Made by a program: the position numbers and the translations under genes. A stretch of 64,000 bases of DNA from Lutimonas halocynthiae (GTDB lineage Bacteria > Bacteroidota > Bacteroidia > Flavobacteriales > Flavobacteriaceae), in assembly GCF_030409835.1 (NCBI RefSeq), contig NZ_JAUFQO010000004.1, positions 806,001-870,000 of the forward strand, read 5' to 3'. The notes under the pieces are model-generated. The model searched no databases. It saw only the letters and a list, made by a program, of their open reading frames with translations, and had not been told where the DNA came from. Below, one piece after another: positions 5,791-25,832 of this stretch (position 1 is the first letter of the stretch; every line of letters starts with the position of its first letter).

Positions 5791-5872
5791 TCTTCAATCT
5801 CAAATCTTCAATCTCAAATCCCTGCCGGCAGGCAGGTTAAATCTCCTTTTATAGGCTAAATAGATCTAAAGA

Positions 5873-5915: not shown

Positions 5916-5944
5916 CACCAGTAAAACTATAAACTGGAATACAT

Positions 5945-7009: not shown

Positions 7010-7065
7010 GGTAAGGGTTTCCTTTATGAAAAGTTTTTGAGATATTGTTCTTTACTCTTTTGTCT

Positions 7066-7275
7066 TGATAAGATTTTCTGTTCATTTTTTTGCTCCTCCA
7101 AAAAAAGAACCAAAAAAAGGAGTCACTGCACGAGGCAATTACTTCGTACCATTCACTCCCACAACTTCATGCTTGTTCTCCCTTTCAGTCCGAACGCACT
7201 TCCGTTGTTCCGTTCATTATTGCTGGCGTGCAGCGGCACGGTCCAATTAACGATTTTAGTTTAGAAGAACCCTTC
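7066..7275 (+). repeat. Family E intergenic repeat, copy 2 (empty site)
   Basis: Nearly identical to 5561-5790 but without the 20-bp palindrome, giving a direct empty-site comparison. Reading frames here are repeat-derived. Confidence 0.85.
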
Positions 7276-7364
7276 AAAAATCTCAAATCTCCACTCTCCA
7301 ATCTTCATTCTCCAATCAAAACCCTACTTCGAAATTCAAAGAGGTCGATTTCGTCCCGATAAAA

Positions 7365-7425
7365 GTCAATGATGAGATCAACTCCCCTCTTGAGAGGGGT
7401 TGGGGGTGTGTTCTAAAATCAACAA
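7365..7425 (+). repeat. Family C intergenic repeat (empty site)
   Basis: Hairpin CCCCTCTTGAGAGGGG followed by ttgggggtgtgttctaaaa. It lacks the 20-mer that interrupts the same point at 478-497. Heptamer-like tracts (caatctcc) follow. No gene is seen between 7010 and 7511. Confidence 0.75.
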
Positions 7426-7443
7426 TCTCCAATCTCAATTCTC

Positions 7444-7533
7444 CAATCCCAGCCTCGCTGGCAGGCAGGTCCAATCTTTCTCCTTATATTTATGACTCAA
7501 CTAACAAACCAATTATTCCTTTTTTTAGACGAA
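7444..7533 (+). repeat. 90-bp duplicated promoter and start region, copy 2
   Basis: Matches 3773-3862 with one substitution, which converts the ATG start codon to ATT (7512-7514). Confidence 0.85.
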
Positions 7534-8261
7534 TCCGAAAAAAAATGGCTGATGACAACCGTCCTTTAAAATATGCTCGCTATGCTATGGGTGAGATCGT
7601 ACTTGTAGTGATTGGTATCTTGATCGCTTTGCAGATCAATACCTGGAATGAAGAACGGAAGGAAAATAAAATTGAAGGAAATTACTTAAAAGAGATGCTG
7701 GAAGATTACCAGACCAATCTCAGCAGATCTGAAAAAGTTATTAAAGAATATGAGTCAATGATACCCACTTTAAAAGGGTTAATAGAACAGTCTTTACTTG
7801 AAAAGCCATCAATTTCTGTCGATTCTTTAAACAAGGCTTGCATGACAATTAATAATATGCCAACCTATAGTAGCTCAGACAGAGTTTATAATAATTTGAT
7901 TGGATCCGGTGATTTAAAACTTCTTAAAAACAAAGCATTAAAAACTGAATTATCTTTTTATTTTGAGAAACTCAATATTTTAAAACTGGTTCAAACAACT
8001 CATGAATTAGAGCTCGTTGAATCGTTCCAACCTTATATTATTGATCATATGGATTTTCTTGCCGTTGCCCCTCGAAGGCTTGCGGAGTATCGTTTACCAA
8101 CACCTAATGAAAATGATAAAATTTTAGAGGTATTACATGATAGTAAATTTAGAAATATCATCACACTCAAATGGGTCATCATAACAGACTTACTAGAGCA
8201 AAATAGGGAGCTAGAGCAAATCAATATAAATATTTTAGAGCTATTAAAAGAGTATTATTAA
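7512..8261 (+). CDS. DUF6090 family membrane protein (paralogue 5) with a mutated ATT start
   Basis: 249 codons if read from ATT at 7512, which aligns with the ATG of all other paralogues; 238 aa if translation begins at the internal ATG 7545 (MADDNRPLKYARYAMG). The head, membrane helix and INTWNEER motif are intact, and the tail is a divergent helical domain. With the internal start the basic MIPFFRRIRKK segment is lost but the helix is kept, so a functional shorter protein is possible. Alternatives are initiation at ATT, or early pseudogenisation. The gene converges on the CPBP gene with a 9-bp gap. Confidence 0.8.
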   Translation: MIPFFRRIRKKMADDNRPLKYARYAMGEIVLVVIGILIALQINTWNEERKENKIEGNYLKEMLEDYQTNLSRSEKVIKEYESMIPTLKGLIEQSLLEKPSISVDSLNKACMTINNMPTYSSSDRVYNNLIGSGDLKLLKNKALKTELSFYFEKLNILKLVQTTHELELVESFQPYIIDHMDFLAVAPRRLAEYRLPTPNENDKILEVLHDSKFRNIITLKWVIITDLLEQNRELEQININILELLKEYY

Positions 8262-8270
8262 TTCAATCTA

Positions 8271-8972
8271 TTAGTTTCGAAATTGCAGTACAAAAAAAGC
8301 AAATTGTACGCCGTCATAAAGTGCATGAGAAATAATCAAGGGTAGTATTCTGCGGTATTTATAGAAGTAAAAACTCATGATGACACTTTTGAGTGCTATG
8401 GAGATGATCCCGGCGGTTCCTTGGTACAAATGTGCTACACCGATTAAGGCGGATGCTAAAAAGATGGCAACAACATGCCAATTCTTATTCTCATTTATAT
8501 TCCACAGGCATTTTAGTAAAAATACCCTTGATAGTTCTTCAAAGAGCGCAATGCCAATCCATAAAACAGGGCCAAACCAAATAAGCAGTAACAAAGGATT
8601 ATTTGCCAACTCTGCCATGGTATCAATCAATTCTGTATTGGGCGGATTATGATTGGGGATCCATCGGTACAAGGTGACTCGCTCTATAAAGAACATGATA
8701 AAATAGATCGCCGTTAAACCAAGACCTACTGCAATATCCGCATACCAAGTTCCTTTTCCTGGGTTAAATGTTTCTTTAAATGAATCCTTAATCAAGTATT
8801 TGTTCAGCCACCAAATCAGCAGGCTTATTCCTCCACCAAAAACCAACGGATAAACGATCATATCGGTGGTAGAGAAATTGTTTGTCTGTGTTAACCTATA
8901 CCATATCATGATGATATTGATTGGTAAAATGGCGATGCAGATTGCAAGGATATTTCGAGATGTTTTGGTCAT
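8271..8972 (-). CDS. CPBP (CAAX/abortive-infection-like) intramembrane metalloprotease
   Basis: 233 aa from the chosen start (an in-frame ATG 24 bp further upstream is the alternative; AAAGGTG lies about 7 bases before the chosen one). It is polytopic, with about six to seven membrane segments. The family motifs are present in order: EELSR (EExxR), a later histidine in GVAHLYQG, and HALYD (HxxxD). These are the predicted metal or catalytic residues. CPBP proteins cleave prenylated or membrane substrates, or protect against bacteriocins; the substrate here is unknown. It stands alone, convergent with the DUF6090 gene. Confidence 0.8.
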   Translation of the reverse strand: MTKTSRNILAICIAILPINIIMIWYRLTQTNNFSTTDMIVYPLVFGGGISLLIWWLNKYLIKDSFKETFNPGKGTWYADIAVGLGLTAIYFIMFFIERVTLYRWIPNHNPPNTELIDTMAELANNPLLLLIWFGPVLWIGIALFEELSRVFLLKCLWNINENKNWHVVAIFLASALIGVAHLYQGTAGIISIALKSVIMSFYFYKYRRILPLIISHALYDGVQFAFFVLQFRN

Positions 8973-9233
8973 GATATCACCTTTAAAAGTAATCATCTCT
9001 CTTTTGAAAAATTATGAGTTATGTCAGGGGGTTTGTTATGGAATGATTGAATGCTTCGAATGCAAGTCAAGGTTTGACTCTTTTCACCCTGCAGATGTCA
9101 AGCCTTGACTAAGCGGCCGGAATTCTTAAAGTCGAATTAAATTCGATCACTGCATAAACCTAAATCTTTAGCCTATGAATTAACCCGTTTTATTTCTAAA
9201 TAAGAGTCTCAAAAATTCTTTACAAATCACCTA

Positions 9234-9590: not shown

Positions 9591-9832
9591 GATATAAAGT
9601 TTTAAATGATTAGACTTATATCATTAGGATTTCAAAATAGCTTTCTTGGAATGTTTTCTATAATATTTTTCCTTTGTAAAGGCTCATTGTAAAAGCACCG
9701 TGGTGTTATACTCGGTTGCTGTCTGTTAGGACTCTTAATGATGGAGTAAAGGTATTTGTTTTGTTTTATTTATAAAATATTTTCCTATTTTTATTCTCAA
9801 AATAAATGATCTTATCCTATTTCATATATTTT

Positions 9833-10182: not shown

Positions 10183-11529
10183 ATGCCAAAAGTTAAATTT
10201 ATCGACCTATTTGCTGGACTTGGAGGAATTAGGTTAGGTTTTGAAAAATCATTTCAAGAATTAGGTTTTGAAACAGAATGTGTAATGACTTCTGAAATTA
10301 AGCCTTATGCCGTGGAAACATTAACAAAAAATTTCAGTCACGATTATTTTAAAGGTGATATTTTTCAGGTTAAAAATGAGCAAATACCTGACTTTGATTT
10401 TCTTTTAGGCGGGTTTCCCTGCCAATCATTCAGTTCAGCAGGAAATCGTCATGGGTTTTCTGATACAAGAGGAACATTGTTTTTTGAAATTGAGAGAATT
10501 TTAAAAGATAAAAATCCATATGGTTTTATTCTGGAAAATGTTGAAGGGCTTGTTAAACACGATTTAGAGAATAAGGGTGATAAAATTGGGAAGACTTTAT
10601 CGACTATTTTATATAAGCTTAAAACTGAATTGGGATATAAAGTTACTTGGAAGGTTTTAGATTCTATTGAATTTGGTTTACCACAATCTCGCAAGAGAAT
10701 ATTTATTGTTGGAACAAAAGACGAAAAAGCGAACCTTACTTTTTTTGATAAAGAATTTAATACTTTAAATACCATTTTAGAAAGTGGATTGGAAACTATT
10801 AAATCTGATTTTACTGAAAAGCTATTTAACCATTTTGAAATGGAAGAATTGTACGGTAAATCTATTAAGGACAAAAGAGGCGGAGACAATAATATTCATA
10901 GTTGGGATATTGGAATCAAAGGAGAAGTATCAGACGAGCAAATTATTTTATTAAACAAGCTTTTTAAAGAAAGACGTAAAAAACATTGGGCTGAAAAAAT
11001 CGGAATTGACTGGATGGATGGAATGGCTTTAACTTTGAAGCAAATCTCAACTTTCCATAAGAATGATAAGCTTCTAGTTGTATTGGATGACTTAGTTAAA
11101 AAAGGTTATTTAAGATTTGAGCATCCAAAAAAACTTGTACATGAAATAACAGAAAATGGAGTTCGTAAATATCGTACTTATGATGAATCGAAGCCAAAGG
11201 GTTATAATATTGTTACTGGAAAATTAAGCTTTGAAATAAATAAAATTTTGGACCCAAATGATATTGCACCAACACTTGTAGCAACAGATGTTTCTCGATT
11301 AGCTGTTCCAGACAACGGAGGTTTAAGAAGATTAACTATTAGAGAAGGCTTACGTTTGTTTGGCTATCCAGAATGGTATCAAATTCCAGTAAAAGAAGCT
11401 GAAGCTTTTGATTTATTAGGAAATACGGTAGCTGTTCCTGTTGTTGAGCACGTAGTACGCCAATTAGCAGTAATATATCAAGACAATGTAAATAGTATTT
11501 CTGTTGATAAAAATGTAGTAAAGATTTGA
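10183..11529 (+). CDS. dcm: DNA (cytosine-5-)-methyltransferase of a type II R-M system
   Basis: 448 aa. It transfers a methyl group from S-adenosylmethionine to C5 of cytosine in double-stranded DNA. Motif I is FAGLGGIRLGF (10-20), motif IV GGFPCQSF with catalytic Cys80, motif VI ENVEG, motif VIII QSRKRIFIVG, and the C-terminal motif X LLGNTVAVPVV. The region between VIII and X (about 190-350) is a long target recognition domain. The paired endonuclease converges on it, with two bases between stop codons. If that enzyme is NgoBV-like, the target would be GGNNCC; this is inference from the partner only. Confidence 0.93.
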   Translation: MPKVKFIDLFAGLGGIRLGFEKSFQELGFETECVMTSEIKPYAVETLTKNFSHDYFKGDIFQVKNEQIPDFDFLLGGFPCQSFSSAGNRHGFSDTRGTLFFEIERILKDKNPYGFILENVEGLVKHDLENKGDKIGKTLSTILYKLKTELGYKVTWKVLDSIEFGLPQSRKRIFIVGTKDEKANLTFFDKEFNTLNTILESGLETIKSDFTEKLFNHFEMEELYGKSIKDKRGGDNNIHSWDIGIKGEVSDEQIILLNKLFKERRKKHWAEKIGIDWMDGMALTLKQISTFHKNDKLLVVLDDLVKKGYLRFEHPKKLVHEITENGVRKYRTYDESKPKGYNIVTGKLSFEINKILDPNDIAPTLVATDVSRLAVPDNGGLRRLTIREGLRLFGYPEWYQIPVKEAEAFDLLGNTVAVPVVEHVVRQLAVIYQDNVNSISVDKNVVKI

Positions 11530-11548
11530 TTTTAAATCAAATCTTTAC
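11518..11548. terminator. 31-bp palindrome, bidirectional terminator overlapping both gene ends
   Basis: GTAAAGATTTGATTT (11518-11532) and AAATCAAATCTTTAC (11534-11548) form perfect 15-bp arms around one base. The last codons of both the methyltransferase and the endonuclease lie inside it. It can form a stable hairpin on transcripts from either side and probably stops convergent transcription. Confidence 0.65.
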
Positions 11549-12221
11549 CCGTTGATTTTTTATAGCCACTTATTACTAATTTTTTCCAAGTACTGGTTAT
11601 GGCATCTCTAGATGTTCTTGCCCATTGTCTTTGATTGCTGTCAAAAGCTTCAACAAATTCTAAGGCACTCTTAAATGGTTTGAAAGTTGTTCTATTATTA
11701 TTATACCATTTTATTGGTCTAACATTGGTTAGCTCACCTTGTTTAACATTGCAATTTAATGCCCATTTTCCGCTAGGACCGCAGATTTCCCAAACTTTTT
11801 TTAACCAAACATCTTTTATAATAACATCAGTCCCATCCATAGCATATCCAATAATTAAATAGTCAGAGTCTAATCTAAATGGATGCTCTAGGAGTGATCT
11901 CCTGTACGCTAAAAACGCTGCAATGTCAAAATTTGCTGAAGCATCATAATCAAAGCATTTTATCTCTAATAGTCCTTTTGTATTATCCGATAAATCAAGC
12001 TGGAAATCGGGAAATTTTTGTGTACTTGGAGGATCTTTAAATTCAATATTTTCCGATATCATCCATGATTTTATCCATTCTTGAACCAAATTACCAACCG
12101 TGTCTTTTGTCTCAACTTCCAATGAAATATCCATTAATTTAAAAGTGATTTTTCCTTTTTTACCTATAAGTTTTTTCTCAATTACTAATTTGTTATAAAG
12201 TTGATTAGCGGTTAATTTCAT
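11532..12221 (-). CDS. Type II restriction endonuclease, NgoBV-like PD-(D/E)XK enzyme
   Basis: 229 aa, no signal peptide. A PD-(D/E)XK core is visible: P71-D72 followed by E86-x-K88 (LLEIKCF). The later stretch with WLKKVWEICG, NVKQGELTNVRPIKWY and a C-terminal GYKKSTGKDL resembles the NgoBV family, which cuts GGNNCC; I recall this pattern but could not search it. It faces the methyltransferase tail to tail, with a shared palindromic end. Even if the family name is wrong, a nuclease core beside an orphan-free C5 methyltransferase supports restriction. Confidence 0.75.
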   Translation of the reverse strand: MKLTANQLYNKLVIEKKLIGKKGKITFKLMDISLEVETKDTVGNLVQEWIKSWMISENIEFKDPPSTQKFPDFQLDLSDNTKGLLEIKCFDYDASANFDIAAFLAYRRSLLEHPFRLDSDYLIIGYAMDGTDVIIKDVWLKKVWEICGPSGKWALNCNVKQGELTNVRPIKWYNNNRTTFKPFKSALEFVEAFDSNQRQWARTSRDAITSTWKKLVISGYKKSTGKDLI

Positions 12222-12904: not shown

Positions 12905-15900
12905 TTAAATATTTCCATTATTATACTTCTTGAAATTCTCCGCTTGTTCAAAAATTTCTTTATAAACTTCATCGCGATCAACAGGTGGGTAATCATTTTC
13001 AGCTAAAAGGATAATCAAATCTACTTTGAGTTCAGCTTTGATATCCGATCGTTTACTCCAGTCCGTATATTTTGCTTTGTCATCCACTACTTTTTTGACT
13101 TTTCGAGCTAATTCAACTAACTTATCTTCAGGATAATCAAAATCATAGCGATGAGCCAATTCTTTTAGGATATCATAAAACGCCTTTTCTTCAAAATCAA
13201 TACCCATGTCTTCAAAGGAATCTTTTTCCTTTTTTAAGGCATGATATAGGTCTATTATTTCGTCAGTAAAATCTTCTAGAACTTCACTTCTTAGAACATC
13301 TGACTCTTTACGTTGGTTGTATTGGTCTATCAAGGCTCTTAACTTCTTCGAGAAATCGACCCCTTTTACTTTGTTGATTTTCTTAAAGTCGTCTATCGCT
13401 TTTGAAAGTAACTTTTGTAATAATTTTATCTTGGTATGAGGTAGTTTGATCTTGGCAATCTTGGCCAAATAGTCTTCATCAAAGATGTCGACTTCTGAAT
13501 TATCATTATCGCCAAGCTTAAAGATTTCTTCCACGCCTTCGCTTTCAATGGCCTCTTGAATCATCTCACTTACATTAGCATTCATCTGTGCGGTATCAGG
13601 TGCATTGCCTTTTGTAAGCTTGTGAACAATTGAGCGCACTGCTAAATAGAAATGGATGTGATCTTTTTCTTCAATACTAAAAGAAGCGCTTCCTGAACAA
13701 ATGTCATAAGCTGCTTTCATCCGCTTTACTAAGTTCATAAAACGATGTTCTAAATCTTTCGTAAGCTGGACATATTCTGCCGCCTTGTTGAGGGTATTCA
13801 ACTGATCTACCGGACTTCCATTAAAATATTTGCTATCGTCAAACTTATGTAAAATAGCTTCCAAAATTACTAGGTGATCTTTTACCACCACGATGGATTG
13901 TTGGATATCTTCAAAATTTTGACTGTCAACCGTAGAATACTGTTTTAAGGCTAAATTCATCTGACGTTTGATACCTAAATAATCAACTACCAAACCTTTT
14001 GACTTTCCTTCAAACTTACGATTGACGCGTGAAATAGTTTGAATTAAACTGTGTTGTTGTACAGGCTTGTCAATGTACATGGTATCTAAAAAAGGCACAT
14101 CAAAACCGGTGAGCCACATGTCTACCACGATAGCAATTTTAAAGTTGCTCTTGGCATTTTTAAACTGACGGTCTAATTCTTTACGGTCTTCTTTTGTCCC
14201 TAACGCATTATACATTTCTTCAGGATCGTCTTTGCCTCGAGTCATCACCATATTGATCCGAGCCATGGGTTTAATTTCACGTTTGTCTTTTTCCGAAAGT
14301 TCAGCTCCTTCGTCAAAGGCTTTTACCTCTGCCCATTCTGGGCGCAGGGCAATAACCTCTTTGTAAACCATATAAGCTATCGGACGACTACTCGCCACAT
14401 ACATAGCTTTCCCCAAAATGGTAGACCCTTCTTCTAAGCGGGCTTCATAATGGGCTACAAAATCAGCAGCAATGGCTTTTATTCTATCAGGGTCTCCAAT
14501 GATGTTGTTCATCGAAGCCATTTTCTTTTTACTTTCTTCTATTTGATATTCATTTGCCCCATCTGCCGCTACATTTTGATAATAAATCTCTATTTCTCGG
14601 AGCTTATAAGTGTTCAAAAGCACTTTTGCTGCCCGTCCTTCGTATACAATTCGAACGGTGATCTCATCTTCTACCGACTCCGTCATGGTATAGGAATCCA
14701 CAATATCACCAAATACATCCATGGTAGCATCTATAGGTGTTCCCGTGAACCCTGCATAGGTTGCATTGGGTAATGAATCGTGTAAGTGTTTGGCAAAACC
14801 GAAAGACTTTTTTACTCCATATTCCGTAACCCGAACCTTTAAATCTAGATTCGTTTGACTTCTGTGTGCTTCATCTGAAATACATATCACATTGCTGCGT
14901 TCGGTGAGTAAATCAGTGTCTTCGTTAAACTTGTGGATCGTAGTTAAAAACACGCCACCACTATTGCGCCCTTTCAGTTGATTGCGCAACTCGTCACGAC
15001 TGGTAACGCTTACAATGGTATTGTCGCCCACAAATCCTTTTGCACTGGTAAACAGACCGGATAACTGATCGTCTAAATCGGTTCTATCTGTAATAAGTAC
15101 AATGGTAGGACTAGCAAAATACGCGCTGCGCATTAAGAGCCGTGTTAGGAAGAGCATGGTAAAACTCTTGCCACATCCTGTGGCACCAAAGTAGGTTCCA
15201 CCTTTGCCATCGCCCTCAGGCTTTTGGTGGATTTTTATATTTTCAAATAATTTGGTTGCCGCATAGTATTGCGGGTAACGACACACAATCTTCTCGTCCT
15301 TTTTAGAACTATCGGGCAGGTAGATAAAGTTGTGTATTAAGTCTCGTAAACGATCTTTTTGAAACATCCCTTTTATCAAGGTATGCATGGAATCTATGCC
15401 ATCTACTTCTTTCTCATGGCCCTCAATTTTACGCCAGGCATAGAAGAACTCGTAAGGTGCAAAAAAAGATCCCGCCTTACTGTTTACGCCATCGCTAATG
15501 ACACAAAAGGCATTGTATTTATATAATTCTGGAATGTCTCTTTTGTAGCGTGTGGTGAGTTGAATATACGCATCATGAACTGTGGCGCTTTCTCTGATGG
15601 CCGACTTAAATTCAAATACTACGACCGGTAACCCATTGATGTATAAAATACCATCTGGAATGCGCTTTACAAACCCTTCAATTTCTAGCTGGTTGACCAT
15701 CTTGTAGATATTCTGGTCTGCCGCTGAATAGTCCATAAGATGAATCCAAATATCTTTTTGGCTATGGTCTTCTCGTTTGAGTAGGAAACCATCACACATC
15801 TTTTTCATGATGGCCTTGTTGCTCTCATACAAATCTGAAGCTGGGTATTTTTGTAAGTCTGTTATAATGCCCTCAACTTCTGATTGTGTAATGCCTTCTT

Positions 15901-16054
15901 TCTTGTACTGCTTTAGCAAGAAGGCTTCCAAGTCTTCTTTAATGATGACTTCCTCTGGTGCACGGTCAATTTCTTCCCCAGGGGCATAGAGATAACCTTG
16001 CTCTGCTAAGAGCGTAATAAATGCTTGTTCTAATTGTGCTTCGGTGAATTTCAT
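12905..16054 (-). CDS. hsdR: Type I restriction endonuclease subunit R
   Basis: 1049 aa, the normal length. The N-terminal nuclease domain has D134, E148 and K150 (VVFEFKSA) of the PD-(D/E)XK fold. The motor domain follows, with Walker A GATGCGKS (290-297), DEAH box (394-397) and later helicase motifs including QTISRVNR. A helical C-terminal region probably contacts HsdM. It translocates and cleaves unmodified DNA with HsdM2S. It is the last gene of the operon, starting two bases after the reverse transcriptase stop, so translation is probably coupled. All catalytic residues checked are present. Confidence 0.95.
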   Translation of the reverse strand: MKFTEAQLEQAFITLLAEQGYLYAPGEEIDRAPEEVIIKEDLEAFLLKQYKKEGITQSEVEGIITDLQKYPASDLYESNKAIMKKMCDGFLLKREDHSQKDIWIHLMDYSAADQNIYKMVNQLEIEGFVKRIPDGILYINGLPVVVFEFKSAIRESATVHDAYIQLTTRYKRDIPELYKYNAFCVISDGVNSKAGSFFAPYEFFYAWRKIEGHEKEVDGIDSMHTLIKGMFQKDRLRDLIHNFIYLPDSSKKDEKIVCRYPQYYAATKLFENIKIHQKPEGDGKGGTYFGATGCGKSFTMLFLTRLLMRSAYFASPTIVLITDRTDLDDQLSGLFTSAKGFVGDNTIVSVTSRDELRNQLKGRNSGGVFLTTIHKFNEDTDLLTERSNVICISDEAHRSQTNLDLKVRVTEYGVKKSFGFAKHLHDSLPNATYAGFTGTPIDATMDVFGDIVDSYTMTESVEDEITVRIVYEGRAAKVLLNTYKLREIEIYYQNVAADGANEYQIEESKKKMASMNNIIGDPDRIKAIAADFVAHYEARLEEGSTILGKAMYVASSRPIAYMVYKEVIALRPEWAEVKAFDEGAELSEKDKREIKPMARINMVMTRGKDDPEEMYNALGTKEDRKELDRQFKNAKSNFKIAIVVDMWLTGFDVPFLDTMYIDKPVQQHSLIQTISRVNRKFEGKSKGLVVDYLGIKRQMNLALKQYSTVDSQNFEDIQQSIVVVKDHLVILEAILHKFDDSKYFNGSPVDQLNTLNKAAEYVQLTKDLEHRFMNLVKRMKAAYDICSGSASFSIEEKDHIHFYLAVRSIVHKLTKGNAPDTAQMNANVSEMIQEAIESEGVEEIFKLGDNDNSEVDIFDEDYLAKIAKIKLPHTKIKLLQKLLSKAIDDFKKINKVKGVDFSKKLRALIDQYNQRKESDVLRSEVLEDFTDEIIDLYHALKKEKDSFEDMGIDFEEKAFYDILKELAHRYDFDYPEDKLVELARKVKKVVDDKAKYTDWSKRSDIKAELKVDLIILLAENDYPPVDRDEVYKEIFEQAENFKKYNNGNI

Positions 16055-16055
16055 A

Positions 16056-17570
16056 TTAATGATATTCCGGCTTAATAAAAGATACTTTGTTTTTTTTCAT
16101 GGCTTTGTAAGGCCCTTTTAGATTTATCTCTTTCAAAACTTCATAAACATAAACCCAATATTTATCAAAATCTTTCTTTTGGAGGCTTAATGCCCTAACA
16201 TAAAACCACGTTAAACATTTACCTTGTTGTTTAGAATATAAATATGCCAAAGTCATAAAAACGCAGTCGTCGCTTTTGAATGACTCGTACCTCATGTTAA
16301 ATCCATCTATTTTAAAATTGTACTTCAAGGCAAAAAAGAGGCTGTAACTGCACGCTTCATAGGATTGCTTTTCTATGCCAAGATCAAACATTGTTTCTGC
16401 AATTGCCTTCTTACCAGATTTCATCACCTTAAAAGGAGTGAAAACTAGTTTGTCGATGATTTGAATTAAATATGGATAAATGTAACAGAGGTGATGCACT
16501 CGTTTTACGAGATAATTGACTGCATGAGAATTAAGAGGTTTTTTTGAGAGCATATTCAATGCATAATTAAGAATAGCAGAATTGTCAGCTTCACTATGCA
16601 TTAGGTCTATGGCCAAATCAAGAAATACTTCAGTCTCTTTTAATGACTGAAACTCTTTGCCTTCTTCATTTTTATATAACTTAAATCTATGATTTTTGAG
16701 TTTTCGAACCCAAGAAGAAACAAATGAATGAGGCAATTCGTCAATTATTGATTTTTTGTGATTTAAACTCAACTCATATTTTTTCAACTCGTGATTCAAG
16801 TCAACTAAAAACTTCTCTGCTTCTTCTTTATGTTTTGTGTAGCATACATAATCATCTATGTGTCTTGTGAACTTATATTTCATTTTTACAAGCTCGTGAT
16901 CGATAGATATTAATATCAGTTCAGAAATCAAGTTTGATGAATGCGGTCCTATTAGAAGACCATTGGTTTCTTGATTTTTTATATTTCTAACATAAAAGTC
17001 CAGCTGATTTTGCCAAAGTAATTTATCATTCGATTTCCTTTTAGCCGTGGCTTTTCCTAATAAGGCCCAAGGAATAGAATGACTATAAATGCTAGGGAAA
17101 CAATTAGAGATGTCACCATGAACTTTATACCTCTTCCCAATAATTAAGTCTACATCCTTATTTGGTTCATCTTCATAAGTCTTGTAGTTCATTTCGAAAA
17201 GGCTTTTTGAATCCTTTTTTTTTCTGATATGAACTTTGCTAACCTTATATAATTGATTTGAAGTTTTTTCTGAGATGAATGTTGTCAACTCATCCCAGTT
17301 ATCTACAATGGTCTTTATCAAATTATGATAACCAATAGGGTTTGGAATTGCTAGAAGTCTAGGTACATTAATATTCCGCATATTCTCATATCTAATGAAA
17401 TCATATGAGCCCTTTTTTGGAAAACCTGGATCTTTTTTTAAAACAAAATCGAAAAACTGTTCAGAAGTAAAAACGGATGGGATTTTATTAGCAAATAAGC
17501 CGTTTCCTAATAAGCCTTCAAAAAGCTCTTCTTTAGTAATCTGATTGTAGTAACTTTTATATGTTTTCAT
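16056..17570 (-). CDS. UG/Abi-type reverse transcriptase embedded in the type I R-M operon
   Basis: 504 aa. Palm motifs are recognisable. Motif A is GDISNCFPSIY with Asp153. A motif-B-like GLLIGPHSSNLISE spans about 204-217. Motif C is RHIDDY with Asp239-Asp240 in place of the usual Y-x-D-D. Motif D is LSLNHKKS. The 'LIGP-SSN' and 'xIDDY' forms are typical of unknown-group and Abi reverse transcriptases used in phage defence, not of group II introns or retrons. About 210 residues of helical C-terminal extension follow the palm, as in AbiK-like enzymes. It lies 64 bp after AIPR and one base before hsdR. I cannot assign a UG subgroup. Confidence 0.85.
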   Translation of the reverse strand: MKTYKSYYNQITKEELFEGLLGNGLFANKIPSVFTSEQFFDFVLKKDPGFPKKGSYDFIRYENMRNINVPRLLAIPNPIGYHNLIKTIVDNWDELTTFISEKTSNQLYKVSKVHIRKKKDSKSLFEMNYKTYEDEPNKDVDLIIGKRYKVHGDISNCFPSIYSHSIPWALLGKATAKRKSNDKLLWQNQLDFYVRNIKNQETNGLLIGPHSSNLISELILISIDHELVKMKYKFTRHIDDYVCYTKHKEEAEKFLVDLNHELKKYELSLNHKKSIIDELPHSFVSSWVRKLKNHRFKLYKNEEGKEFQSLKETEVFLDLAIDLMHSEADNSAILNYALNMLSKKPLNSHAVNYLVKRVHHLCYIYPYLIQIIDKLVFTPFKVMKSGKKAIAETMFDLGIEKQSYEACSYSLFFALKYNFKIDGFNMRYESFKSDDCVFMTLAYLYSKQQGKCLTWFYVRALSLQKKDFDKYWVYVYEVLKEINLKGPYKAMKKNKVSFIKPEYH

Positions 17571-17634
17571 AAATTATTTACACGATTTGGTGTTTCATAA
17601 AGTACATCCGTGAATTTCATAGAATATTTTGATC

Positions 17635-19284
17635 TTAGTTTGATTGTATTTCTATATCAATAAGATCTTTTATTTCATTGCTTTTGAATAAGTTGTTCAA
17701 AGAGAATCTTAACCCTAATTCTGTTTGACGTCTTTGTATTATGCTATTTAATATAGTCGAACTGACTAGTAACGCCTGAATGAAATGCTCTCTAATTTGA
17801 TTTTCAGGGATATTTTCATTTAAAATATTTGCGTTAAGTAACTTCATGCAATAGGCAAATGAGTACATCGCATTATTCATTGTAGTCGAATCTATATTTG
17901 ATTCATTTGTTAAAAATCTATAAAGTTGGTAGCATAGGTAAAGTCTTCGAAACATTGGTTCGCCAATATCATTAGTAAACACAATATCGTAATATCTGTT
18001 AAAAACTGTCCTTTTACTCCTCTTTGCTGCTCCGGGCTCATCTAAATAAAGTGCTGCATACATCTGAAGTATTCCTTCGTTTGTAATCGTGTCATTATAG
18101 AATTCAATGTCCTCACCAACTTTAGTAAGGAAACCAATCCCTTTAGCTTCAAAGTAGGCTTTCACTCTTTTTTGAGCTTCATCATTTGAATGCAAGTCAA
18201 CAACATTGATCGGGTTTTGAGAGTTGGTTGCCTTGGCAATATTTAACAAGTATTCACTAGGAGCTTTATATATTCTTATTAGTAGGCTGGCTTGTTCAAA
18301 TTGATCAGAATAATTTCCCGTTTTGAAAAGATTGTGGAGAGTTGATATCGTTTGACCCCCGTTCACAACACTCGGTTTTGTCATTTCGATTCTAGTTATA
18401 GCAGTTCCAGTGGCGTGTAATTCAAAATCTTCACAAACAACAGTGATTCCATTGTTCAAAAAGCAAAATTTCTCAGGCTCGTCTATAAAGCTAGTCTTCA
18501 TTTCATTGTTAATTCTGCTTGTCTTTATTTTGTATCGAACATTATAGTTTAACAAGAGGTTTTCACCTGTCTCCTGGAAGAAACGCATAAGTTCATTTGT
18601 AAGGCACGTTGTGATTTTCCCATAATATGCGCCTTCTATTGTGCCAAGTACACTGTCTGTTTTATCTCGGTTATTTTTAAGGTTCACCATTAAATGGCCG
18701 TCCTTAAACTCAGGGTCAGGACCATATCGTGTGGCATCAAGAAATTCAGGGTAAATGCTATTATCTGGAGCTTGTCTTATTTCATCCAAATCTTTTCTTC
18801 CAGCGTGTATAATTCCATTAGTGGCGTAGAATAATCTTATTCGAATTTTTGGTTTCCCATTGGCTTCCTGTAGGTTTCTATACGTCTCTAATTTTCCCTT
18901 TAGTATGTCATTTTCATATTGGAAACTTTCACCATTTAAAATTTTTTCGCAACTCCTGATTGTAAGAATTACTTCATCTTGTGAGTGAGTTGAGGTATCA
19001 CCATCAACATTTTTATATTTTGATTGGATAATGACTAATTCAGATATTTCATCTTCATCATCACTGTAATAGAACCCATCAATTTTGTTGTCGTCATCCC
19101 CATCGGTTAAAGAATCATAGGCTTTAACTTGATCAACTCCGTAATAATCCATTAAAACAGACATGGTCAATGCCATGGAGTTTTTCATGTTGTCATCAGC
19201 TGACACCTTAGGCAATGAATCAATATAGGCTTTATTAAGATCTATGTGATGTCGTAGTTTGTTTAATTGAGTCTGATTAATCAT
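17635..19284 (-). CDS. AIPR (abortive infection phage resistance) family protein
   Basis: 549 aa, soluble. The N-terminal part DNMKNSMALTMSVLMDYYGV, with the following acidic SLTDGDDDNKIDGFYY, matches the AIPR family. So does the central VNGGQTISTLH (about residues 308-318) with a downstream KATNSQNPI. AIPR proteins are associated with abortive phage resistance in other bacteria; their biochemical activity is poorly defined. The early 'D-x-IDGFYY ... VIIQSKYK' stretch resembles a PD-(D/E)XK-like core, so a nuclease role is possible. It lies 14 bp after hsdS and before the reverse transcriptase in the same operon, an accessory position. Confidence 0.85.
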   Translation of the reverse strand: MINQTQLNKLRHHIDLNKAYIDSLPKVSADDNMKNSMALTMSVLMDYYGVDQVKAYDSLTDGDDDNKIDGFYYSDDEDEISELVIIQSKYKNVDGDTSTHSQDEVILTIRSCEKILNGESFQYENDILKGKLETYRNLQEANGKPKIRIRLFYATNGIIHAGRKDLDEIRQAPDNSIYPEFLDATRYGPDPEFKDGHLMVNLKNNRDKTDSVLGTIEGAYYGKITTCLTNELMRFFQETGENLLLNYNVRYKIKTSRINNEMKTSFIDEPEKFCFLNNGITVVCEDFELHATGTAITRIEMTKPSVVNGGQTISTLHNLFKTGNYSDQFEQASLLIRIYKAPSEYLLNIAKATNSQNPINVVDLHSNDEAQKRVKAYFEAKGIGFLTKVGEDIEFYNDTITNEGILQMYAALYLDEPGAAKRSKRTVFNRYYDIVFTNDIGEPMFRRLYLCYQLYRFLTNESNIDSTTMNNAMYSFAYCMKLLNANILNENIPENQIREHFIQALLVSSTILNSIIQRRQTELGLRFSLNNLFKSNEIKDLIDIEIQSN

Positions 19285-19298
19285 AAAGTTGGCTCGGT

Positions 19299-20477
19299 TT
19301 AAGCTATTTCTTTTTCTAGTTCTACTTTGGTCATTTTGGCAAGAAACAAGGACTTCAAATCATTTAGTTTCTTAATCGATTTTTCGTTGATATTCAATTG
19401 TTCATGAACCACAATAACATGTGAACCAAATATATCTTGTATACCTTTTTGCGGAATAAGTGTATAATGGAAACCCAAATCACCTGAAGTAATCTGTGAT
19501 TGAGCTGAACCACTATCTAAAGATCGCAGATTGTCATTCTTTAGGTAATAGAAATAATATTCTCTTGAAACAGAGTTTTTATCAATTTCAACCACAATGC
19601 TCAAGTTGGTTATGTGTGCTTGTTTGGGAGAGAGGCGAACTTCACCAGTCCCGCTGACACCACGGCATAAAACAAGAATTTGAGATTCTTCATACATGTA
19701 TGAAGAATAGTAACCACGAATACCATAGCCAGAAAAAATAGGGTAGCCTGATTCTAAAAACAATGACGAGTCTAACATTTTGCCGTATTTCAAGTCAGCA
19801 ACATCTTCAATTCTTTTAGCTTCCCACCTCTCGGGAATCTGCTTCTCCAACTCTTCATTGAAAACCATTTTACCACCAGAGGATTTATAGGGTTTACCTT
19901 CTTTATTTGGAAATTCAAAATCTACAAACCAATGCTTGTAAAGTGCTTGGGCGGTTTCTTCTAGTTTTTGGTTGAGTTGTTCATTGAGTTTTATGCGGTT
20001 TACAACCGTGTTGTATTCGGCAACTATTTCGTGTTGTTTTTCAAAAGAGGGAATGGGAAGTTCCATTTCAAGGAAATCGCCCCATTCAAGACTTCCGCGT
20101 ACACCACCCACAGCTAAGAAACACGCGTGTCGGTCAAACTCAGATCTTGAAAACCACATCATCAAATATTCTGGTAATAATAGATTTTCATCTATCACTT
20201 GAAAAACAGGATAGGCTTGTGAAATTATGGCTTTATCAAATTCTTGAAGAAGTGCGATAGGCATTTTTTTATCTCTTCTCACCTGCATAATACTGCATGC
20301 AAATTGTCCCTTCCTTATAATTTTATAGGTAGACATGTTTGTGCCTACAGTATTAGCCACAGATGGAATAAACTCCTTGGTAATACTTAAACCTAACAGT
20401 TTTGTAATCCTTAAATCTCTATTTCGTTCATCGACTAACTCAATGAAATCTCCTATTTTCTTATAGTTTGATTTCAT
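19299..20477 (-). CDS. hsdS: Type I restriction-modification specificity subunit
   Basis: 392 aa with two target recognition domains. The first ends near 185 in the helical spacer QLNQKLEETAQALYKHWFVD. The second (about 215-365) ends in a matching helical repeat NINEKSIKKLNDLKSLFLAK. The two halves set the two parts of a split recognition sequence and bind two HsdM subunits. It overlaps the end of hsdM by 17 bp, so the two are translationally coupled. The recognition sequence cannot be read from the protein. There is no sign of inverted partial hsdS copies that would allow phase shuffling. Confidence 0.93.
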   Translation of the reverse strand: MKSNYKKIGDFIELVDERNRDLRITKLLGLSITKEFIPSVANTVGTNMSTYKIIRKGQFACSIMQVRRDKKMPIALLQEFDKAIISQAYPVFQVIDENLLLPEYLMMWFSRSEFDRHACFLAVGGVRGSLEWGDFLEMELPIPSFEKQHEIVAEYNTVVNRIKLNEQLNQKLEETAQALYKHWFVDFEFPNKEGKPYKSSGGKMVFNEELEKQIPERWEAKRIEDVADLKYGKMLDSSLFLESGYPIFSGYGIRGYYSSYMYEESQILVLCRGVSGTGEVRLSPKQAHITNLSIVVEIDKNSVSREYYFYYLKNDNLRSLDSGSAQSQITSGDLGFHYTLIPQKGIQDIFGSHVIVVHEQLNINEKSIKKLNDLKSLFLAKMTKVELEKEIA

Positions 20478-22032
20478 GACCTAACTCTTTAAATACATTT
20501 AGTAAATCTTCTTTTGATTGTTGTTCTTGTTGTAAAAGCTCAGCAAATTCACCTTGCAGTCTTTGCATCTTATCATCAAAATTGATGTTTTCGTCTCGGT
20601 TAACGAACTCAATGTATTTACTAGGAACTAAGGAATAGTCTTTGGCTTTAATTTCATCCAACGTAGCCGAGTAAGTGTATTCAGCTTCATCAGAATAGCC
20701 GCTTTCATTTTGCTGCCAATCGTGATATGATTTAGCAATATCTCGAATATTGTCTTTAGAAAACTGAATGAATTTCTTTTCAAACGGTACGCCCACTTCT
20801 CTCAAATCCATAAAGAGTACTTCATGTTGGCGATCTCGGTAATTTCTACTTCCATCAGGATGCTTTACAACTCTCTCCTTTTTATTGTTGTTTAGAATCC
20901 AGAGGGTTACACTAATGTTAGTGGTATAGAACATGTTTTGCGGTAGAATCACAATGGCTTCTACCATTCCGTTTTCCACCAATTTCTTACGAATTTTGTA
21001 TTCTTCTCCTCCTCCTGAAAGGGCACCATTTGCTAGAATAAAACCAGCTACTCCATTTCTAGAGAGTTTAGAGGCGATGTTTAATATCCAACCGTAGTTG
21101 GCATTGCTGGTAGGTGGTATTTCGTAACCCTTCCAACGGGCATCGTCTACCAATTCGTTCGCAGCCCGCCAGTCTTTTTGGTTAAAAGGTGGGTTAGCCA
21201 TAATAAAGTCGGCCTTTAAATCGGGGTGTTGGTCGCGCCCAAAAGTATCGGCTGGTACATCGCCCAAATTGGCTGAAATTCCCCGAATAGCGAGATTCAT
21301 CTTGGCCAACTTATAGGTAGTGGCTGTGTATTCTTGTCCGTAAATGGAAACTTCTTTTTTGTCGCCATGGTGGTTGTCTATAAACTTCATAGACTGCACA
21401 AACATGCCACCCGAACCACAAGCGGGGTCGTAAATAATGCCCTTGTAGGGTTCAATCATTTCGGCAATAAGGTTTACAATACTCTTGGGGGTATAGAACT
21501 CTCCTTTACCCTTTCCTTCGGCCAAAGCGAACTTGCTTAGAAAATACTCATATACGCGTCCAACAATATCTTGCTGCTTGTCTTTTAAGGTGTCTATGTT
21601 GTTTATGGTATCTAGCAAAGCAGACAGCTTGCTTACATCCATATTTAAGCGTGAGAAGTAATTGTCGGGCAAGGCGCCTTTTAAGGCTGGGTTGTTCTTC
21701 TCTACATTATGCAGTGCGGTATCTATAATCAGGGCAATGTCGTCTTGCTTACAATTTTTTAAGATGTGGCTCCAACGGCTTTTTTCGGCCAAGAAGAATA
21801 TGTTCTTCATGTTGTAGAACTCTTTCATCTCGAGGTATTTCTCTTTGCCTTCTGTTATGAGTTCTTCTCTACGCTCTTCAAACTTGTCGCTGGCAAATTT
21901 TAAGAAGATGAGTCCGAGCACCACGTGCTTGTATTCAGAGCTTTCTACCGTTCCACGGAGTTTGTTGGCAGCATCCCAAAGCTGCTCTTCCATGGATTTG
22001 GTGGGTTTATTTGATATTTTCCTTTTGACCAT
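20461..22032 (-). CDS. hsdM: Type I DNA adenine methyltransferase subunit
   Basis: 523 aa. The helical N-terminal domain HsdM_N covers about 12-160. The AdoMet-binding motif I DPACGSGGM (202-210) is followed by the catalytic motif IV NPPF (280-283). Together with HsdS it methylates adenine N6 in the recognition site and protects host DNA. ATG at 22032 begins MVKRKISNKPTKSMEEQLWD, with MEEQLWD aligning to the usual family start, so a start at residue 14 is also possible. It is the first core gene of the operon; a 126-bp gap separates it from the upstream HsdR_N-like gene. Confidence 0.95.
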   Translation of the reverse strand: MVKRKISNKPTKSMEEQLWDAANKLRGTVESSEYKHVVLGLIFLKFASDKFEERREELITEGKEKYLEMKEFYNMKNIFFLAEKSRWSHILKNCKQDDIALIIDTALHNVEKNNPALKGALPDNYFSRLNMDVSKLSALLDTINNIDTLKDKQQDIVGRVYEYFLSKFALAEGKGKGEFYTPKSIVNLIAEMIEPYKGIIYDPACGSGGMFVQSMKFIDNHHGDKKEVSIYGQEYTATTYKLAKMNLAIRGISANLGDVPADTFGRDQHPDLKADFIMANPPFNQKDWRAANELVDDARWKGYEIPPTSNANYGWILNIASKLSRNGVAGFILANGALSGGGEEYKIRKKLVENGMVEAIVILPQNMFYTTNISVTLWILNNNKKERVVKHPDGSRNYRDRQHEVLFMDLREVGVPFEKKFIQFSKDNIRDIAKSYHDWQQNESGYSDEAEYTYSATLDEIKAKDYSLVPSKYIEFVNRDENINFDDKMQRLQGEFAELLQQEQQSKEDLLNVFKELGHEIKL

Positions 22033-22158: not shown

Positions 22159-23088
22159 TTAATTTTGAAATAGGATTTTGGTCAGAGCCTCACCTAATAA
22201 TTGGACTTGTTCTTTATCAAAAGGCCTGAAACGCCTCATGTGTTTTCCTTTATCATGCGGCGCTGAAGTCATAAAATCGAAATCAGAATTTTCCTCGACT
22301 AATTTTGTCAAAACCAACACATCCGGATTTCTCTTACCAAACTCAACTCTTCCAATTCTAACTCTCTTACCAGTTGATTCCATTATTTGAAAAATGCTTA
22401 ATCTTGTACTTCTTATTTCAAAGTCATTCTCATCATTAAAACCGCCGTTTTGTTCTAAATTTTCGAAAACCGAATGTAACAACTCGATATCTAATTTTGA
22501 AAGCTTCGGTGCAGATTTTATAAACTCTATGATTTGATCAAAATTTTTAACTTGAGTTATTGCGTTTGATTTTCTAGTGGCTTTATTAATCTTACTCAGT
22601 TGGATTGGTTGTATTTCAGATCGATAATACTTTGGTTCTTCATTCCAATTATCACTTTGATTAGCGCCATTTATAATAAATGAAACAATCTTATCTAACT
22701 TTTTAGCTACAACTATGGGTTCTCCATCAGTCAAACTAATACAATTATTTTTGCCATCAGAACATAATATCCATGACTCACCATTCGTAACAATACCTCT
22801 TAAACCTGGCTCTAAATATTTTGTGATTAATTCTGCAGAGATCTTTCTATTTATTCTTTTCGCCTCGATCATTAATACTGGCTTGCCCGCTTTAAGCATG
22901 GCAATATCTACTGATTGTGAAGCTCCATGGCTACTAGTTTGATTGAATTCAAAATAGACGTCATGCCCAATCGATTTATTAGCAAAATCCACAACAGGTG
23001 TTATAAGTCTATACATAGCCCATCGTTCTGATTTTTGACTATTTTGAAGATGATATGAAAGGTGGTTTATTAGGTTTTCTTTGGTCAT
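22159..23088 (-). CDS. HsdR_N-like (PD-(D/E)XK) protein upstream of the type I operon
   Basis: 309 aa. Residues 1-130 resemble the isolated N-terminal nuclease domain of type I R subunits, with D61, E75 and K77 (VDIAMLKAGKPVLMIEAKR) and a downstream 'YLEPGLRGIVTNGESWILCS' segment. No helicase domain is present, so it is not a truncated HsdR by simple deletion; the C-terminal 150 residues are a separate, unrecognised domain with RVRIGRVEFG. It is on the same strand 126 bp upstream of hsdM and could be a further effector of the locus. Function is inferred only from the fold. Confidence 0.65.
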   Translation of the reverse strand: MTKENLINHLSYHLQNSQKSERWAMYRLITPVVDFANKSIGHDVYFEFNQTSSHGASQSVDIAMLKAGKPVLMIEAKRINRKISAELITKYLEPGLRGIVTNGESWILCSDGKNNCISLTDGEPIVVAKKLDKIVSFIINGANQSDNWNEEPKYYRSEIQPIQLSKINKATRKSNAITQVKNFDQIIEFIKSAPKLSKLDIELLHSVFENLEQNGGFNDENDFEIRSTRLSIFQIMESTGKRVRIGRVEFGKRNPDVLVLTKLVEENSDFDFMTSAPHDKGKHMRRFRPFDKEQVQLLGEALTKILFQN

Positions 23089-23937: not shown

Positions 23938-24696
23938 TTATACTTTATTTAATTGAAGTTCTTTTAGTATCTCTTCTGGCCAAATAATAAATTTACCATA
24001 CTGACCACTCCTAGAGGTACCTCCAAGGTCCTCGCCTTTTTTTGTCGCTACCCAATCTTCTCCTTTTTTATACATTAATCTATTATCAACAAACCAAGCG
24101 TTTATTTTTCTACTTGTTTCTCCAATTTCACTCGATAATTCTTTTGTTGTAAGAAGTTTTGAGTAAGAAGAATCACTCTTTTTAATCACAGTCTGATTCT
24201 CATTTTTAACTACCGTTTTTACTTTCTTAAAAGGAGTTTCTTTTTGCGGAACCTTTGCGTAAGAAAAATCTTCACTATTGTGAACAATTGATTCAATGTC
24301 TTTTGTAGCATCTTCGTACACTTTTTTATCCTCGTCATTTTCTGCATCAATCAAAATTCCCATCTCTCTGTTATTTTGTTGAGAATATTCATAAAGGTTC
24401 ATTGAGGCAATAATCATTTTGCTTTCGTTCATATAGCACTTTGCATGAAGGTTTTTAGAAAAGTATAAGCGCACATAACTCAAATTTTCTAAATAACTCA
24501 TTTCGGCAGGAGCGAGTTCTTGTTTCCCAAAAATTATTCTTACTTCGACTTTTTCTCTTTCCTTGTCGTTAAGTAATTCTTTAACATTGTCAGATAACTT
24601 TAAATATGGGCTTATAATGTATAATTCTTTACGTGCTTCTCTAATTAAATTTTCTAATTCTGCTGTAATACTTGAAGTTCTTAAATACTTTGCCAT
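23938..24696 (-). CDS. Phospholipase D-like (HKD) nuclease-family protein with C-terminal wHTH-like region
   Basis: 252 aa, cytoplasmic. One HKD motif is present as HAKCYMNE...ASMN at about 86-103: H-x-K, then Glu where the consensus has Asp, then the S-x-N of GSxN. Such one-motif proteins act as homodimers, often as nucleases. Residues about 185-245 (LTTKELSSEIGETSRKINAW) resemble a winged-helix or KilA/antirepressor-like C-terminal domain. It lies between the type I locus and a NERD gene, which supports a defence role, but no partner is evident. The Asp-to-Glu change may alter catalysis. Confidence 0.8.
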   Translation of the reverse strand: MAKYLRTSSITAELENLIREARKELYIISPYLKLSDNVKELLNDKEREKVEVRIIFGKQELAPAEMSYLENLSYVRLYFSKNLHAKCYMNESKMIIASMNLYEYSQQNNREMGILIDAENDEDKKVYEDATKDIESIVHNSEDFSYAKVPQKETPFKKVKTVVKNENQTVIKKSDSSYSKLLTTKELSSEIGETSRKINAWFVDNRLMYKKGEDWVATKKGEDLGGTSRSGQYGKFIIWPEEILKELQLNKV

Positions 24697-25157: not shown

Positions 25158-25832
25158 ATGAGACTACTTCGAGGTTGGTTCGGCGAAAAGAAAACCACTT
25201 TTAATATGTGGGTCTGGCTTGATAGCAAGACTTATCGTAGGTTTCATGATATCATAATTCCAGGAAGCAATGGAACTACTCAAATTGACCATTTACTAGT
25301 GTCTGAATTTGGGGTTTTCATAGTTGAAACAAAAAATAAAAAGGGCTGGATTTTTGGATCTGAGAATCAATCAAATTGGACTCAAACTCTATACGGGAAC
25401 AAGTATTCTTTCCAGAACCCACTTCGACAAACTTTCAGGCAAAAAAAAGTCTTATCTGAATTTTTAGGGATACATGATTCATACATTAATAGAGTTGTTT
25501 ATTTTGTTGGAGATTGTAGGTTAAAAACAAAGCTCCCAGCTAATGTGATGACAAATGGATTGTCTAGTTATATAAAAAGCTTTCGAACTCCTGTTTTGTC
25601 AAAAGATGTAGTAAATGATGTAATTGAACAATTAGAGAAGCACCTTGCTGTCTCGACCTTAACTCGAAGAGATCATATCCGTTCCTTAAAAAAACGCCAT
25701 GCATCAATGACTATTTGCCCTAAATGTGGTGGGAATCTTGTTCAGAAAATGGCTAGGAGAGGACCAAATGCTGGCTCGATTTTTTTGGGATGTAATAATT
25801 ATCCAAAATGTCGATTTACCAAAAACGCTTAG
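25158..25832 (+). CDS. NERD domain protein with C-terminal topoisomerase-type zinc finger
   Basis: 224 aa, no signal peptide. The NERD domain (about 25-130) has IIIPGSNGTTQIDHLLVSEF, then GVFIVETKN with the Asp and Glu-x-Lys of the PD-(D/E)XK-like core. The C-terminus (about 188-220) is a four-cysteine zinc ribbon, CPKCGG...CNNYPKC, of the topoisomerase I DNA-binding type. The pairing suggests a DNA-acting nuclease or repair protein. It borders the defence region and shares its promoter element with the coiled-coil NERD gene at 5945. Confidence 0.85.
   Translation: MRLLRGWFGEKKTTFNMWVWLDSKTYRRFHDIIIPGSNGTTQIDHLLVSEFGVFIVETKNKKGWIFGSENQSNWTQTLYGNKYSFQNPLRQTFRQKKVLSEFLGIHDSYINRVVYFVGDCRLKTKLPANVMTNGLSSYIKSFRTPVLSKDVVNDVIEQLEKHLAVSTLTRRDHIRSLKKRHASMTICPKCGGNLVQKMARRGPNAGSIFLGCNNYPKCRFTKNA

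Follow-up and report, generated by a model that had tools for sequence, protein, structure and literature searches.

What do an AIPR-family protein and a reverse transcriptase (RT) do inside a type I restriction-modification (RM) operon, and how did they come to lie there? The question is raised by a locus of Lutimonas halocynthiae (Flavobacteriaceae; assembly GCF_030409835.1), contained in a 64,000-nt stretch of contig NZ_JAUFQO010000004.1 (806,001-870,000) that is called the window here and in which positions are counted unless another locus (L plus a number) is named. Five open reading frames (ORFs), all of them open, follow one another on the minus strand in the order hsdM-hsdS-AIPR-RT-hsdR. 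A first-pass annotation had taken the AIPR protein and the polymerase for core members of one system. The comparisons described below point elsewhere: with a probability of roughly 0.78, the interval between hsdS and hsdR is a cargo bay of a Bacteroidota type I operon, filled stepwise with self-standing defence genes.

The RM part of the operon is complete by sequence, with HsdM, HsdS and HsdR present together with catalytic motifs. The N6-adenine methyltransferase subunit is encoded by hsdM (20461..22032, 523 aa; Pfam N6_Mtase at 331 bits and HsdM_N, motifs DPACGSG and NPPF), the specificity subunit by hsdS (19299..20477, 392 aa; two stretches matching Pfam Methylase_S, PADLOC Specificity_I at 226 bits) and the restriction/translocase subunit by hsdR (12905..16054, 1049 aa; NCBIfam hsdR at 471 bits, PADLOC REase_I at 1260 bits). 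HsdR also matches HSDR_N, SWI2_SNF2 and T1RH-like_C and carries the motifs GATGCGKS and DEAHR, plus an EFK, presumably of the nuclease. Embedded between the intact hsdS and hsdR, on the same strand, are the first cargo gene, for the AIPR protein (17635..19284, 549 aa; PADLOC AbiU at 127.5 bits), and the second, for the RT (16056..17570, 504 aa); the genome holds a single match each for the RT and for hsdR. The hsdM and hsdS genes overlap by 17 bp, AIPR follows hsdS after 14 bp and the RT ends 1 bp before hsdR. The first-pass annotation had described this order, strand and spacing correctly, and its gene identities agree with the family matches in an operon-like layout. Missing from it was the 64-bp gap between AIPR and RT (17571-17634), the most informative stretch of the locus.

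Cargo between hsdS and hsdR in related operons

A census of the family with the window HsdM as query (E 1e-150) retrieved 22 of 299 genomes, its own included. Both hsdS and hsdR are visible in 20 of the 21 others, although the L097 contig covers no more than the first 156 aa of hsdR. The slot was filled, that is, it held at least one inner ORF of at least 100 aa, in 18 of the 20 assessable relatives, and all 62 such ORFs have the orientation of the operon. By contrast, only 2 of 20 operons have an open hsdM-hsdS junction (Fisher 5e-7). A second census, across the phylum and with the HsdM of L039 as query, gave 14 of 296 genomes, its own included; 10 of the 13 others look window-type as judged by hidden Markov model (HMM) scores of HsdM (806-877 against 609-614, with L207 at 759), and seven of them were assessable. 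Six of these seven slots were filled, and 18 of their 19 inner ORFs run in the direction of the operon; no slot was filled in the operons of the query's own type I subtype (L197-L199, a control of three operons only). Pooled, the filled slots amount to 24 of 27 in window-type operons versus 0 of 3 in the other subtype (Fisher 0.005). Four operons (L084, L202, L205 and L207) reach the contig end before hsdR and were left out of the slot counts. The hsdS-hsdR interval is special in window-type operons.

Part of the cargo genes was scanned with Pfam and PADLOC, and by these matches the slot in the relatives includes Gabija-, CBASS-, Kiwa-, AbiE-, SIR2-HerA-, Shedu- and GmrSD-type genes as well as Cas13b. 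The slots hold GmrSD (L086, L088, L089, L092, which also has PifA/KAP, and L018), SIR2 with HerA (L087, L208), Old (L203, L206), DUF6088 with AbiEii (L082, L098), AbiEii and Cas13b (L097), and a GajA-like (L078) or OLD-like (L081) protein with UvrD. Other slots hold AAA_13/PDC-S06 (L079), a TIR protein with SLOG and a ThsB-like TIR (L080), a TIR/SLOG-type gene by likeness to the latter (L085), KwaB (L096), AriA (L204) or SduA (L209); Schlafen-type genes occur in L079, L085, L093 and L098. A complete CBASS-like set of type II, with patatin, a DncV-like cyclase, E2/ThiF and JAB, occupies the slot of L095 (2327-9792), and a Schlafen-type gene lies between hsdM and hsdS there. A UG39 RT (577 bits), a second class of defence RT in the slot, lies in L088 (8177-9922) between OLD-like and PDDEXK/GmrSD genes. 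L097 holds, between hsdS and hsdR, a Cas13b ORF (5691-9110, minus strand, 861 bits) and repeats at 66-nt spacing (4751-5584), so that a type VI-B CRISPR (clustered regularly interspaced short palindromic repeats) system seems to be embedded in its type I operon.

Cargo can also differ between operons whose RM subunits are more than 90% identical. L080 and L082 share 96% identity in HsdM and 93% in HsdR, L080 and L018 share 92% and 94%, and in both pairs the cargo is different; L078 and L079 (92% and 98%) have a single cargo gene of about 170 aa in common. L082 retains a 107-aa piece that is 95% identical to the GmrSD of L089 and is, by this likeness, a remnant of earlier cargo. Directly before hsdR, L018 (13373-14395) and L019 (15374-16396) carry a 340-aa protein, 80% identical between the two, whose L018 copy gave no Pfam or PADLOC match; we regard it as a candidate new defence gene. 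The slot may in this way serve as a search handle, since genes of unknown kind found there, such as this one, are good candidates for defence.

Copies of the hsdR start at cargo junctions

The AIPR-RT gap holds a short copy of the start of hsdR, ATGAAATTCACGGA (17607..17620, minus strand), which we call a stub; hsdR itself begins with ATGAAATTCACCGA (16041..16054, minus strand), the proposed accretion point. The window contains ATGAAATTCACNGA twice, against an expectation of none, and in 3.99 Mb of the genome this pattern is confined to these two sites, on the same strand, with no occurrence of the reversed control. From the stub, a 17-codon frame (17567..17620, minus strand; translation MKFTDVLYETPNRVNNL) runs on until it overlaps the RT start by 4 nt (ATGA).

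Similar copies were found in other operons. Against a profile of hsdR starts, from which the hsdR start of the operon under test was excluded, 6 of 70 junctions (29 operons) scored at least 7.5, these lying in five operons, compared with a mean of 0.17 and a maximum of 2 in any of 200 shuffled sets. The stub of L086 (29 nt) sits at the stop of an AAA gene, ahead of GmrSD, and that of L097 (23 nt) at the end of a Schlafen-like fragment, ahead of the AbiE genes; stubs also precede a 500-aa gene in L203 and a Bro-N gene in L093. The fullest case is L098, where a decayed hsdR-like start, recognized by eye, lies at the stop of the Schlafen-type (SLFN) gene and is followed by a copy, 107 nt long and 94% identical, of that operon's own hsdR start, then by the DUF6088 and AbiEii genes and finally by hsdR. 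The stubs of L086, L097 and L098 were detected by an alignment search, and those of L203 and L093 emerged only with the profile; in the other operons, six of the phylum census included, the alignment test gave no strong match. Each stub marks the place where hsdR would begin were the preceding cargo gene the last. Stub length ranges from about 16 to 107 nt, a spread that speaks against a site-specific recombinase.

In the mechanism we propose, a donor piece made up of new cargo and hsdR would join the resident operon by recombination inside the hsdR start, its far end being perhaps anchored by homology in hsdR, and each joining would leave a stub of the old hsdR start behind the older cargo. 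The present operon would first have been hsdM-hsdS-AIPR-hsdR and later hsdM-hsdS-AIPR-stub-DRT4-hsdR (DRT4 being the RT, see below), and the position of the stub, between AIPR and RT, suggests that these two genes were acquired separately. A single transcript from upstream of hsdM would then provide three layers of defence: HsdMSR, which would cut unmodified DNA, as is established for the family; DRT4, whose untemplated single-stranded DNA (ssDNA) would be toxic when shielded by a phage protein; and AIPR, as a predicted nuclease-type effector. These layers probably act independently under shared expression and not as one machine. Promoters of the Bacteroidota type follow the pattern TTG-N17-24-TAnnTTTG. 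A separate promoter in the AIPR-RT gap was considered and rejected on a scan with this consensus, which found no match in the operon gaps; the same scan gave six matches on the minus strand of the window, one of them inside hsdM (21240-21267), and none directly upstream of hsdM.

Several points weigh against stepwise filling. The pattern ATGAAATTCACNGA was picked after the gap had been inspected. The window stub is short, and its score of 2.1 on a 24-nt profile was also attained in 6 of 200 shuffles and in 8 of 1080 ORF-internal windows; the alignment test missed it altogether, its best score being matched by 43 of 200 shuffles. By profile, this stub is weak, and the case for it lies in the exact 5' end and in its uniqueness. 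Of the high-scoring junctions, the second one of L097 (8923-9034, beside the CRISPR array) may be due to chance, as may the lower-scoring junction of L204. Most filled slots are without a stub, so other routes must exist, and no donor-recipient pair was caught among the operons compared. As for the cargo, 3 of the 24 filled slots gave no defence-type match in the part scanned (L083, with a generic AAA domain only, and L090 and L201, with nothing), and L018 and L019 (HsdM 93%, HsdR 94% identical) have mostly the same cargo, so that swapping is not universal. What the compared sequences do show is that the bay is filled in most of the relatives examined, that its contents can vary at more than 90% RM identity and that the hsdR start recurs as short copies between units of cargo. 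Such stubs would offer a readable record of the order of capture, together with a concrete model of recombination.

The reverse transcriptase, the AIPR protein and competing explanations

The RT, which matches RVT_1, is assigned by sequence to DRT4/UG15: PADLOC Drt4 is its best class (634 bits over residues 1-503; runner-up Drt6, 282 bits), and phmmer against Protein Data Bank chains named UG15 or reverse transcriptase gave E 1.9e-55. Residues D153, D239 and D240 are invariant in 7 of 7 aligned proteins. With 424 bits on NF041749 it stays under the NCBIfam Drt4 equivalog cut-off of 450, and it is therefore a divergent member. According to the passages available to us, DRT4 makes untemplated ssDNA that becomes toxic once its 3' end is covered by a DNA-binding protein of the phage (PMC13213688, PMC13314766), as when phage ORF55 protects the product from exonuclease (PMC13213688), and the product of the related DRT3 is cleared by RecBCD and accumulates under phage Gam (PMC13174585). 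The window RT resembles the published DRT4/UG15 in its full-length match and its retained catalytic aspartates, but sits inside a type I operon, whereas these passages describe a single-gene system. The abortive mode that the first-pass annotation had suggested for the RT is likely, since the RT is a DRT4 (mechanism in PMC13213688). DRT4 is rare: a search at 1e-30 retrieved it from 2 of 397 genomes of the family, and the PADLOC profile at 1e-50 from 7 of 395 genomes of the phylum, its own included in both counts. A phage or plasmid as the vehicle of DRT4 was considered and rejected: we found no phage match at 1e-20, one plasmid record (30% identity) and five viral contigs (30-44%); a single-protein scan of genome contigs with the window RT gave no match.

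A scan of one genome per species (84,980 species) yielded 39 DRT4-related loci, nine of which have DRT4 between hsdS and hsdR (L018, L019, L021, L023, L030, L031, L033, L036 and L039). These come from Bacteroidota, Bacillota, Fibrobacterota, Campylobacterota and Pseudomonadota, and their HsdR proteins are 23-73% identical to that of the window, covering several type I families. L021, L023 and L036 are closely related; L036 breaks off within the RT, so that hsdR is unseen, and was counted as embedded by its hsdM, its hsdS and its likeness to the other two. In L045 and L050, DRT4 follows hsdR. On a maximum-likelihood RT tree of 38 of 40 rows (the window and 37 of the 39 loci, L052 and L055 being dropped at below 100 bits), the embedded rows require six label changes, a number that stayed the same when nine non-embedded loci near contig ends were dropped, and a single embedded clade was rejected (p-AU 6.7e-7). 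Therefore, type I operons have most likely taken up DRT4 repeatedly.

This recurrence lends some weight to the thought that DRT4, and not AIPR, is functionally tied to type I restriction, in that phage proteins which shield DNA ends or block host exonucleases, and so help the phage through restriction, would also let the DRT4 product build up and thereby trigger DRT4; its repeated capture by type I operons would then be selected. The spread of the nine embedded loci over five phyla and several type I families and the six label changes in the RT tree speak for such a tie, as do the toxicity of the ORF55-protected DRT4 product and, in the passages of PMC13174585, the accumulation of the DRT3 product under Gam. 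On the other hand, 28 of the 38 tree rows are not embedded, and with so many other defence genes in the slot the capture of DRT4 alone needs no special tie; we consider this explanation rather unlikely. Somewhat less doubtful, though still tentative, is a combination of it with the cargo bay, in which the hsdR start would be an integrase-free accretion point where type I operons of this lineage gather entire defence systems in succession, the stubs would be dated layers, the cargo would be kept under the RM promoter and DRT4 would be recaptured as a sensor of the end-shielding by which phages survive restriction.

It is improbable that the window stub, instead of being a scar, serves as a leader peptide or resembles hsdR by chance. 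Its frame overlaps the RT start by 4 nt, as a coupling leader would, and its resemblance to hsdR is gone after about 16 nt; yet the pattern is unique in the genome, and the stubs of 23, 29 and 107 nt in L097, L086 and L098, the last a 94% copy, also speak against this reading. Slightly less probable still is mere crowding, in which genes of a defence island would have landed between hsdS and hsdR by chance, unconnected in expression or mechanism. Other defence-type genes do stand close by in the window, but insertion at random would hardly place every inner ORF of the family census on the operon strand, leave the hsdM-hsdS gap closed in 18 of 20 operons and make the slot recur across phyla.

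The notion of AIPR and RT as a conserved pair was rejected on three sets of loci. Neither AIPR nor DRT4 lies between hsdS and hsdR in any of the 27 assessable related operons (blastp at 1e-5 for 20 of them, HMM at 1e-5 for seven), so the search for the five-gene order proposed in the first-pass annotation ended in the outcome that it had named as a refutation. L018 and L019, of the window RM type and found via the RT, outside these 27, have DRT4 and lack AIPR. A single-sequence HMM (1e-4) found no AIPR match among the ORFs of the 39 DRT4 loci. In none of 20 AIPR neighbourhoods (18 genomes) does AIPR stand between hsdS and hsdR; hsdM or hsdS was found in none, and hsdR only in L141, about 5 kb off. 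One AIPR neighbourhood, L138 (6721-10420), shows AIPR and then a broken RT near the contig end, with no hsd gene found; one half of this RT is best matched by UG17 and the other by a generic RT profile, and it is not DRT4. A dedicated five-gene system with AIPR and RT at its core, killing the cell upon failure of restriction, as the first-pass annotation saw it, has tight spacing on one strand in its favour, along with PrrC in EcoprrI as a genuine case of an effector guarding a type I enzyme (passages of PMC12707154), but is very improbable given these three sets and the hsdR-start stub that splits AIPR from RT. A suicidal back-up triggered by a blocked HsdR is possible by analogy.

Under the cargo-bay explanation, AIPR would be a self-standing effector, and its N-terminus deserves attention. 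The Pfam AIPR domain (PF10592) is matched at 115.5 bits against a gathering score of 25. Residues 65-89 (D65/D69...Q87-x-K89; 19018..19092, minus strand) form a proposed PD-(D/E)xK nuclease core: all 16 proteins of one AIPR alignment and all 20 of another share D65, D69, Q87 and K89 (D-x3-D...QxK), and a predicted structure of middling quality (pLDDT 71, pTM 0.48) places D69 before one strand and Q87/K89 at the end of the next. Alignment and model together thus show a D and a (D/E/Q)xK on adjacent strands. Mrr_cat matched 1 of 20 AIPR members (E 3.3e-4) and Mrr_cat_2 weakly 2 of 20 (best 0.1); the window protein itself gave no nuclease-family match and no Foldseek match at E 0.001. In the passages of PMC3506569 the AIPR/AbiU family is given an N-terminal HEPN domain, whereas the window protein and its relatives show PD-(D/E)xK-type residues and, with respect to the HEPN motif R-x4-6-H, no column of invariant H in either alignment (highest H counts 4 of 16 and 11 of 20). 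The N-terminus fits a PD-(D/E)xK nuclease rather than HEPN, as far as alignment and model go. If confirmed, members of a widespread family would be expected to act as PD-(D/E)xK nucleases and no longer as HEPN RNases.

A GmrSD/ParB-like NTPase at the C-terminus was considered and gained no support from profile comparison (hhalign to GmrSD, probability 0.1%, E 0.4); Foldseek gave weak matches to SspE and ParB in the first six ranks (E 0.11-0.69), with a likeness of NGGQT to DGQQR. The AIPR protein is without close relatives, the only one of 299 family genomes retrieved at 1e-40 being its own, and in the phylum 19 of 296 genomes matched at 1e-12, its own included, the others at 25-35% identity. 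Plasmids gave no match at 1e-30 and 30 distant ones at 1e-8; viral contigs gave none in a single-protein scan and 52 distant loci in an alignment scan, which were used for alignment and model only.

Embedded systems in the literature and the surroundings of the operon

Cargo at the hsdS-hsdR site is known case by case. In the passages of PMC12255303, the RptR-RMS-DarTG2 island of enteropathogenic E. coli likewise places a defence system between hsdS and hsdR, its cargo being DarTG2 or, in another four genomes, an RNA-binding/AAA pair, whereas the window has AIPR and DRT4; hsdR-start stubs, present in the window, are not described in those passages. The type I cluster of V. cholerae VPI-2 also carries two cargo genes, TgvAB, which widen the phage range (PMC11411939, in part), but TgvA and TgvB are jointly required as one system, whereas AIPR and DRT4 seem to have arrived separately. 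PrrC in EcoprrI is again an effector embedded in a type I locus and, by the passages of PMC12707154, senses inhibition of the restriction enzyme; AIPR and DRT4 resemble it in gene position. The rlo and mlo genes in hsd loci of Campylobacter jejuni (PMC5183652, in part) concern another organism and another locus.

As to the single genes, the AIPR/AbiU family is described as common in RM operons in the passages of PMC2292703, with which the window AIPR agrees, and it is present in a type II operon (PMC5608340); AbiA/AbiK RTs are known near RM genes (PMC8934634, in part), and the passages of PMC9508834 and PMC11077055 contain nothing on type I operons. In the largely open-access literature searched, we found no report that combines AIPR with an RT (DRT4) inside a type I operon, none of DRT4 recurring as cargo of such operons and none of hsdR-start stubs, nor an account of the route by which cargo enters and leaves. 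Embedding at this site is known (PMC12255303), and, as far as these passages reach, the stubs and the repeated capture of DRT4 appear to be new.

Some features of the window around the operon deserve mention. A SAM-I/IV riboswitch (9655-9746, minus strand, 57.6 bits) is followed on the same strand by a 118-aa ORF (9590-9234) that by its look, no search having been made, is not a methionine gene. A 309-aa ORF (22159-23088), on the operon strand and 126 bp upstream of hsdM, has a sub-threshold HSDR_N-like match (20.9 bits) and is possibly a member of the operon. A type II RM unit (10183-12221) with a cytosine-5 methyltransferase and an NgoBV-like endonuclease adjoins the type I operon, and two defence-type genes lie near it on the other side, one for a PLD-like protein with weak likeness to DrmC (23938-24696) and the other for a NERD plus zinc-ribbon protein with weak likeness to PglW (25158-25832).

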